Source of the DNA: Burkholderiales bacterium
GTDB taxonomy: Bacteria > Pseudomonadota > Gammaproteobacteria > Burkholderiales > Burkholderiaceae_C
Length of the DNA stretch: 64,000 nt
Reading direction: 5' to 3'
Assembly: GCA_016191525.1 (NCBI GenBank)
Contig: JACPOK010000011.1
Location: forward strand, 1-64,000
In this document: positions 27,321 to 29,408 of the stretch, in pieces
Layout: each line of letters opens with the position of its first letter
Numbering within the stretch: the first letter of the stretch is position 1
Program-made: the position numbers and the translations under genes
Notes under the pieces: generated by a model
What the model was told of the DNA's origin: nothing
What the model saw: only the letters and a program-made list of their open reading frames with translations
Database searches by the model: none

Positions 27321-27826
27321 TGGAATCCGCAACGCTATCAAATTCAGAGCGCCTTGTGCAGGCTGCATGCGCTTCGCTGGCCGATTTGCTTCTGGAAAAA
27401 GGCTGGAAGCTGGCCACCGCCGAAAGCTGCACCGGCGGCATGATCGCCGCCGCCTGCACTTCGCTGGCCGGCTCCAGCAACTGGTTCGAGCGCGGCTTCG
27501 TCACCTACTCCAACGAAGCCAAGACCGATTCCCTCGGCGTGGACGCCGCGCTGATCGAAGCCAATGGCGCGGTGAGCGAAGTAGTGGCCCGCGCCATGGC
27601 GTTCGGCGCGGCACGCCATTCGCTCGCGCAAGTCAGCGTGGCTGTCACAGGCGTTGCCGGCCCCACCGGCGGCAGCGCCAGCAAGCCGGTGGGCACGGTG
27701 TGGTTCGGCTTCCAGGTGGATGGCCTGCTCACCAGCGAAACCCGTGTGTTCCCCGGCGACCGCGCCGCCGTACGCGCGGCGACGGTGGAGCATGCGGTCA
27801 AGCGGCTGATTGAGTTGCTGGGCTAG
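27320..27826 (+). CDS. pncC: CinA C-terminal-domain protein (nicotinamide-nucleotide amidohydrolase)
   Basis: KLATAESCTGGMIAAACT, VAVTGVAGPTGG, GTVWFG. Confidence 0.93.
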   Translation: MESATLSNSERLVQAACASLADLLLEKGWKLATAESCTGGMIAAACTSLAGSSNWFERGFVTYSNEAKTDSLGVDAALIEANGAVSEVVARAMAFGAARHSLAQVSVAVTGVAGPTGGSASKPVGTVWFGFQVDGLLTSETRVFPGDRAAVRAATVEHAVKRLIELLG

Positions 27827-27868
27827 GCCTGCGCGGCAACGGGCTCGCAAGATTGGGCCGGCAGGGCA

Positions 27869-27932
27869 CTCCGCGCAGCGAATGTCCCCCGGCCCCGGGA
27901 GGGGGCCTCCTCCTTAATTTCGCTGCGCAGAG
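27869..27932. repeat. Hairpin element family C, copy 1
   Basis: Arms CTCCGCGCAGCGAA/TTCGCTGCGCAGAG around TGTCCCCCGGCCCCGGGAGGGGGCCTCCTCCTTAA. Confidence 0.85.
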
Positions 27933-28076
27933 CGCCCCGCCGACCCAGTCCTTCATGCCGCCTCACGCGCTATCCATGCGCCTTGCGGGCCTTTTTGTGC
28001 CCGCAAGCCGCGCCACGCCTGCGTTCCGGATTCCGGGTGCAAGGGCCAGCAGCGCCTTCTTTTCCCATATTTATCA

Positions 28077-28100
28077 ATATTTCAAGGATTATTGAAATAT
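28077..28100. promoter_or_regulatory. AT-rich dyad ATATTTCAA-ggatta-TTGAAATAT, operator-like
   Basis: Perfect 9-bp arms in an otherwise GC-rich region. Confidence 0.5.
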
Positions 28101-28134
28101 CGCGCATCAACAAGGCAGGCAAGCCATGGGTGCT

Positions 28135-28208
28135 GGCTGGCCGTCGCGGCGAAATCAAGGAGGAGGCGCCCTCCCGGCGCCGGGGGACATTCGCCGCGGC
28201 GGCCAGCC
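28135..28208. repeat. Hairpin element family C, copy 2 (opposite orientation)
   Basis: Reverse complement core GCGAATGTCCCCCGGCGCCGGGAGGGCGCCTCCTCCTTGATTTCGC; 19-nt arms GGCTGGCCGTCGCGGCGAA/TTCGCCGCGGCGGCCAGCC. Confidence 0.85.
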
Positions 28209-28229
28209 GGCACCCAGGGCCCACGCGAC

Positions 28230-29408
28230 CTAGGCCCGCAACAGCGCCGACACCTCCCGCCTCGGCGACGGCAGCACCTCCGCAGCCGGGTAGCCGATCC
28301 GGCAAAACATCTGCACCGTCTCATCGGCCTCGCTGCGCGGCGCGGGCTTGCCGATCAGAAGCTGGTGGACGCTGGCGTAGTGCGCTGCCATCTCGGGAAA
28401 CTCCTGTAGTGCCTGGCTCATGGGGTGCAGGCCCAGGCCGAGTTCGGTGGCCTTGAGTTGCAGGCGCACATAGGCGCGCCCGGCCTCGAGCTGGTGGGCG
28501 CGGGTGTTGCCGGGCGTGGCGAGCCAGATGAATCCCATGGCGGTGCGGCTGTGGCCGCCGAAGCGGCTCATCATCTGGTCGTAGGCGGGGCTGCCTTCGC
28601 GCGGCGGTGCGGTGCGGTCCAGCAGGCCCAGCACGTTGGCCGCGCGAGGGAAGGCGCCGTTGATGGAGATGCCGTCGCGGTGGGCTGCGATTTCCTCGGG
28701 GCCGACTCGCGTGAGGCGCAGGCTCTCCATCACGGTGGCCGGTGTCAGCAGTTCGACCTTGGCGGCCTCCCAGCACAGGCTGCGCAGCGCGGGCAGGCGC
28801 TGCTCGTCCACCGTGCCGGCGACCTTGATCGGGCCCGCGCTCGCCTGCGCCAGCGCTTGCTGCAAGACAGCGGGCGCTACCGGTTTGCTGATGTCGAAGT
28901 CCACCTTGGGCGTGTGGCGGTGCAGCACCTGCGCGAACAGCGGGTCGGCCACGCCACCGGGCGACAGCACGAGGCGCGCCACCGGGCGCTGGTCCCAGTC
29001 CTTCAGCTGCGCGGGCAACCGGCCCTGGGGCCACAGTGCGACTTCGCTGCGCAGGCCCTGCTGCGCCAGCGCCATCACCAGCAGCTCGATGAAGGCGCCG
29101 TGGCCGACCAGGATCTGGCGGCCGAACGGGTCGGTGTCGGGCAGCAGGCGCGCTCGGTCGCAATACAGCGTGATGGCGTTGGCCTCGCGCAGGTCCACCA
29201 TCCAGGGCTGCAGGTTGTGCGGATTGGGCGCGGTGATGGCATAGGCCACGGCGCGGCGGCGGGGGTCGGCCTCGGCGCCGGGGCCTTGCCACGCCACCAG
29301 CGTTTCGGCGGGCATGCCGGCCGAGAGAGCGCCGGTGCCCAGCGCCGCCGCACCGGCCGCGGCCACGAAGCCGCCACCCGCCAGGGCGATGAAGTTGCGC
29401 CGCTTCAT
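28230..29408 (-). CDS. Acg-like nitroreductase-fold protein with Tat-type signal
   Basis: MKRRNFIALAGGGFVAAAGAAALG; ITAPNPHNLQPWMVDL. Confidence 0.8.
   Translation of the reverse strand: MKRRNFIALAGGGFVAAAGAAALGTGALSAGMPAETLVAWQGPGAEADPRRRAVAYAITAPNPHNLQPWMVDLREANAITLYCDRARLLPDTDPFGRQILVGHGAFIELLVMALAQQGLRSEVALWPQGRLPAQLKDWDQRPVARLVLSPGGVADPLFAQVLHRHTPKVDFDISKPVAPAVLQQALAQASAGPIKVAGTVDEQRLPALRSLCWEAAKVELLTPATVMESLRLTRVGPEEIAAHRDGISINGAFPRAANVLGLLDRTAPPREGSPAYDQMMSRFGGHSRTAMGFIWLATPGNTRAHQLEAGRAYVRLQLKATELGLGLHPMSQALQEFPEMAAHYASVHQLLIGKPAPRSEADETVQMFCRIGYPAAEVLPSPRREVSALLRA

Follow-up and report, generated by a model that had tools for sequence, protein, structure and literature searches.

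Within the window (the whole stretch of 64,000 nucleotides that was analysed), an intergenic region near 28 kb raises the question of what is being conserved in two oppositely oriented hairpins whose outer arms differ in sequence while each remains self-complementary. The initial annotation had described two copies of one hairpin element in opposite orientation, and both copies were confirmed at their positions with a covariance model and by pattern matches (Table 1). Hairpins A and B are a single inverted pair and constitute one copy of one element, which is bordered on its left by a CinA-family gene (PF02464, E 5.9e-53) with its stop at 27826, and on its right by a minus-strand ORF with its stop at 28230-28232.

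Table 1. Features of the element and its edges (window coordinates)
Feature	Position	Strand	Remarks
Hairpin A (copy 1)	27850..27948	-	G-rich strand is minus; cmsearch R1 90.1 bits, E 2.6e-19; folding
Hairpin A, 5' arm of outer stem P1	27919..27948	-	Alignment to covariance model
Hairpin A, 3' arm of outer stem P1	27853..27882	-	Alignment to covariance model
Hairpin A, core CGAAATTAAGGAGGAG-P2-CGGGGGACATTCG	27879..27922	-	Pattern match
Hairpin B (copy 2)	28124..28222	+	G-rich strand is plus; cmsearch R1 85.0 bits, E 4.4e-18
Hairpin B, arms of outer stem P1	28124-28153 and 28190-28219	+	Covariance model
Hairpin B, core CGAAATCAAGGAGGAG-P2-CGGGGGACATTCG	28150..28193	+	Pattern match
Spacer separating hairpins A and B	27949..28123		Above usual length; contains nested repeat
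Nested second dispersed repeat	27958..28103	+	Approximately 150 nt, in the spacer
CTAG, left edge	27823..27826		Includes TAG stop of CinA gene; possible insertion-site duplication
CTAG, right edge	28230..28233		Includes TAG stop of minus-strand gene; possible insertion-site duplication

Architecture and folding of the hairpins

Each hairpin was found to consist of an outer stem (P1) of approximately 30 bp and a small apical stem (P2), separated by an internal loop of invariant purine sequence (AAGGNGGAG / GGNGGACA). This loop is asymmetric, AAGGAGGAG on one side facing GGGGGACA on the other. The covariance model placed 30 pairs in the outer stem of each window hairpin, with one non-standard pair apiece. 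The self-complementarity previously reported for the arms held, over a length of approximately 30 bp and not the 14 and 19 positions first given. The pattern GCGAAATNAAGGAGGAGGC was matched twice in the window against an expectation of 0.03. RNA folding of the two hairpins gave z-scores of -7.1 and -6.0 for the AAGGAGGAG strand and of -5.1 and -6.4 for the opposite strand, with none of 200 shuffles folding equally well, while DNA folding gave -41.1 and -45.9 kcal/mol for the G-rich strand compared to -32.3 and -40.7 kcal/mol, respectively, for the other.

Covariation of the arms and strand asymmetry

Among 44 hairpins with divergent arms, 90.1% of cells were paired and double compensatory changes were present at 33 of the 35 pairs, the covariation score being 0.841 compared to 0.193 for shuffled data and 0.115-0.147 with partners slid. 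When hairpins were grouped into 80 clusters (<70% arm identity), all four Watson-Crick pairs were seen to be used at most outer-stem positions; pairing dropped past approximately 31 pairs, indicating that the length of the stem is set. The samples collected with the core pattern are biased towards an exact core, and 43 partner hairpins identified by structure only gave the same picture of covariation. The proposal that selection acts on a hairpin is therefore strongly supported, and variation of the arms without compensation, the outcome that would have spoken against it, was not seen among the copies collected.

The non-standard pairs are informative regarding the strand concerned. Across 410 hairpins, G·T/T·G cells numbered 832 and A·C/C·A cells 82. 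In a double-stranded palindrome, transitions in one arm or the other are expected to yield G·T and A·C equally, so the excess of G·T means that structure is maintained on the G-rich strand only, as a single strand. By itself, this asymmetry does not distinguish RNA from single-stranded DNA.

The conserved core and its loop

Two G doublets on each side of the internal loop were found to be nearly invariant, with a variable residue between them. The combinations of these middle residues, counted by hand in 65 genomes with six non-hairpin rows excluded and the A/G figure lacking a few genomes, were approximately 674 A/G, 108 G/A, 28 C/G, 8 A/A, 4 G/G, 2 T/G, 2 A/T and 1 A/C. Under independence roughly 16 G/A combinations would be expected, so that the middle residues of the two sides act like a base pair. 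This bears on the likeness of the core to stem-embedded two-tetrad G-quadruplexes and to purine-purine internal loops, which share two facing GGNGG tracts between two stems. If the core were a simple quadruplex whose single-base loops are free, no covariation between the N positions would be predicted, whereas here they covary as a pair, and a simple two-tetrad G-quadruplex was rejected in favour of direct pairing.

Positions adjacent to the loop carry either A-T/G-C pairs or tandem A·G/G·A, and the stem has two more fixed positions at which A·G and G·A mismatches are found repeatedly. The apex of P2 was a C-GNA-G triloop in 110 of 160 distinct triloop P2 sequences, a loop that is unusually stable in DNA.

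Copies in the genome and distribution among bacteria

Scanning of the genome from which the window derives (5.0 Mb, 40 contigs) with the covariance model revealed exactly three inverted A/B pairs (C21, C15 and C6) and one single hairpin. The single hairpin (C15:83132-83230; L004, L017) is a hybrid in which the outer arm of A is joined to the outer arm of B around one core, its outer stem being mostly unpaired as a consequence; it looks like a product of recombination or template switching. The pairs of C21 and C15 match at 83% across the entire unit and have in common the nested repeat, the presence of which makes the window spacer longer than usual. This repeat (CCTCACGCRCTATCCATGCG..., terminating in the palindrome ATATTTCAAGGATTATTGAAATAT) was also found alone at C6:76123-76274, C15:302952-303108 and C8:86655-86806.

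The core pattern was matched in 122 of 399 genomes of the family, representing 59 of 141 genera, and the reversed-pattern control gave 0 matches. Numbers of hairpins per genome ranged from 0 to 69, and BLAST gave a match in 26 of the 59 genomes sampled from the same genus. In a phylum-wide sample, matches were limited to 8 of 349 genomes, every one belonging to one of two families. Named genera with matches include Ramlibacter, Variovorax, Hydrogenophaga, Rhodoferax, Acidovorax and Rubrivivax, and, in the second family, Lysobacteraceae, the genera Thermomonas, Lysobacter and Luteimonas together with a Stenotrophomonas-type strain. The phage records searched had no match to the hairpin, and among plasmid records only three unannotated Variovorax replicons of 1.2-1.3 Mb had one. 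A record titled Bacillus subtilis SK7B5 (L192) also carries hairpins, probably because it is mistitled or contains contaminating sequence.

Orthologous sites and edges of the element

In Hydrogenophaga, the joined flanks of an element matched genomes without the element and others possessing it at the same site. Dispersal, variation in copy number and such polymorphic sites identify it as a mobile element. In the filled orthologues scanned for one site (L353), both hairpins have a perfect core, with outer arms that differ, sometimes completely. For hairpin B at this site, 421 of 542 differing cells were double changes in which both versions are paired, 69 were single changes that preserved pairing and 52 were pair-breaking. 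Two orthologues (L405, L413) were found to possess a hairpin A with one arm exchanged and the other not.

Flanking target duplications had been named as a check on mobility, and none could be cleanly measured: none was resolved at empty and filled orthologous sites, the ends being too diverged, and the CTAG edges in the window are suggestive only. At the equivalent of the window site in a distant relative (G034), both genes are present with their stops overlapping in TTAA. Comparison with this site, along with the CTAG edges, suggests that the window element may have been inserted at overlapping stop codons. CTAG was found near elements 40 times versus 4, a difference that is mostly one-sided and confounded by stop codons. 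In one Ramlibacter genome (flanks L064, L069, L070 and L071), an additional outer inverted repeat (CTAGGAGGCTGGGCGGCAGAA) begins at a TAG stop codon.

Pair arrangement and gene context

Close neighbours were arranged in the -+ orientation in 163 of 172 cases (+- in 5, -- in 4), with a core-to-core gap of mostly 104-135 nt. Using heuristic gene calls, 56 of 98 pairs were placed between tandem genes, 40 between convergent genes and 2 between divergent genes, the corresponding background for 611 gene neighbours being 395, 120 and 96. The element is thus intergenic and avoids promoters. Single hairpins showed no preference for the strand of a neighbouring gene (11 sense, 19 antisense), and a sense orientation at mRNA 3' ends was rejected for this reason.

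Widely spaced -+ hairpins were considered as the ends of cargo-carrying elements; five cases were found, one with Mrr, another with an AAA ATPase and others with metabolic genes, which was judged insufficient. The Mrr gene, for type IV restriction (mREase_IV), was observed in a Hydrogenophaga genome between inverted hairpins with identical P2 that lie 1.3 kb apart (L330 1708-3109). The AAA ATPase (ORC-CDC6-like match) was observed along with a 290-aa protein of unknown family between hairpins that share their arms and are separated by 2.9 kb (L342 704-3683).

Nature of the element

We consider the feature to be a single copy of a mobile element that is REPIN-like and non-autonomous and is recognised as a folded single strand, and assign this reading a probability of roughly 0.6. 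Hairpins A and B would move or be copied as a unit of approximately 250 bp, extended to approximately 375 bp in the window copy by the nested repeat. An enzyme acting in trans may recognise each hairpin through its G-rich strand, folded as single-stranded DNA, for example at replication forks, reading mainly the invariant purine loop and the inner stem, with the outer arms needing only complementarity and a length of approximately 30 bp. Cutting or copying between both hairpins could then spread the unit. Single-stranded DNA is preferred over RNA due to single hairpins ignoring the direction of neighbouring genes, paired hairpins serving opposite strands and the GNA triloops, with none of these being decisive. 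Counting against single-stranded DNA, GNA triloops and G·U pairs also occur in RNA. Counting against a mobile element, many copies have persisted at orthologous sites in different species, as is also expected of an element useful to the host; no transposase was found beside the hairpins, and no target duplication could be read cleanly.

A related alternative, which is possible but to which we give clearly less than even odds, is that the element represents a new class of mobile element distinct from RAYT/REP. Its signal would be a three-dimensional purine-loop motif (tandem G doublets around a covarying A·G/G·A/C-G pair) within a stem whose length is fixed and whose sequence is free; from species to species the arms would be swapped in situ around an unchanging core.

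That the hairpin is a structured RNA, as the initial annotation had also offered, is doubtful. Here the G-rich strand would act in transcripts, as a 3'-end stabiliser, a processing site or a protein-binding RNA at gene ends, and dispersal would be secondary. The excess of G·U over A·C on one strand would fit such a role, as would the position downstream of genes with avoidance of divergent intergenic regions, and the tandem G·A pairs and purine internal loop with its covarying A·G/G·A/C-G pair resemble RNA motifs. However, where a single hairpin lies between co-directional genes, its orientation does not follow theirs, and the inverted pair reads each strand once. Neither was there enrichment of GNRA or UUCG loops, nor a matching Rfam family, with no family above the gathering threshold and a permissive search returning only weak matches of microRNA type and sub-threshold ones. 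A purely structured-RNA reading is thus possible but not favoured.

Complementarity of the arms could also arise in an inert repeat, in which template switching copies one arm onto the other and covariation is a mutational by-product. Such correction is a process known in general for quasipalindromes, and it would account for the blockwise, two-sided change of outer arms seen at orthologous sites around a constant core and P2, as well as for the half-switched hairpins (L405, L413 and the hybrid). It is improbable as the whole explanation, as it would not give a tenfold excess of G·T over A·C on one strand, would remove the A·G and G·A mismatches that recur at set places in the stem and leaves the invariant loop with its covarying central pair unexplained. 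Template-switch correction nevertheless probably contributes to the turnover of arms. Ordinary bidirectional transcription terminators, alike by chance, would suit the convergent and tandem positions but are very improbable, given that there is no U tract, that a long invariant loop sequence is common to two bacterial families and that presence at orthologous sites is variable.

A published description was not found in the open-access literature, whether by words or by core letters, and the element is so far unnamed. Few bacterial repeats have covariation that is this clear and strand-specific. Its hundreds of natural variants form a test set for determining which enzyme reads a folded single strand and whether REPIN-like spread needs a RAYT, and they also address how palindrome arms turn over with complementarity retained. 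Annotators could mask or name this unlabelled element in Ramlibacter, Hydrogenophaga, Variovorax and relatives.

Comparison with known systems

The beta-proteobacterial repeat element BRE is an intergenic, G+C-rich repeat of approximately 90 bp in Bordetella and Comamonadaceae (PMC3110155). Compared by description only, its hosts overlap in part with those of the present element, from which it differs in occurring as tandem repeats of variable number. MITE-like repeats (ERIC, RUP, nemis) are similar in being short, non-coding, dispersed, structured and located between genes; the ends of the present element are two separate long hairpins and not one palindrome, and no target duplication could be read cleanly here.

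The closest comparison is with REPINs and REP sequences with their RAYT (TnpA-REP) transposases (PMC3116915, PMC3733652, PMC8266576). Shared features are inverted dimers of imperfect hairpins, here at a fixed distance, an extragenic location with a 3'-end bias and avoidance of promoters (2 of 98 pairs divergent versus 96 of 611 in the background), one functional strand, genome-specific sequence families and a non-autonomous nature. REP hairpins are 20-40 nt in length with an unpaired GTAG or CGTC tag, whereas the hairpins here are approximately 100 nt and have an invariant purine loop enclosed by a 30-bp outer stem whose sequence is free, with up to 69 hairpins counted per genome. No GTAG/CGTC tag was found at the hairpin foot, with no bases conserved outside the stem among 107 cluster representatives.

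A REP-associated tyrosine transposase had been suggested as a neighbour, and was not found beside the hairpins. No RAYT gene was flanked by them; one Y1_Tnp gene occurs in almost all genomes, whether or not they contain hairpins, and is flanked by other repeats, and a RAYT/Y1 transposase was rejected as a hairpin neighbour because it is not adjacent. In the genomes of L149 and L139, the only Y1 transposase (RAYT-like) gene has an inverted repeat of its own (TTAATTGGGGTCAGATTCCAATTAAT) on either side.

The earlier REP/MITE-like assignment thus stands for the dispersed copies, inverted dimers, intergenic location and presence/absence polymorphism; a REP tag and an adjacent RAYT were not found, nor could a target duplication be cleanly measured. 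As REP size, tag and adjacent RAYT all fail, the element is described here as working like a REPIN, rather than as being one.
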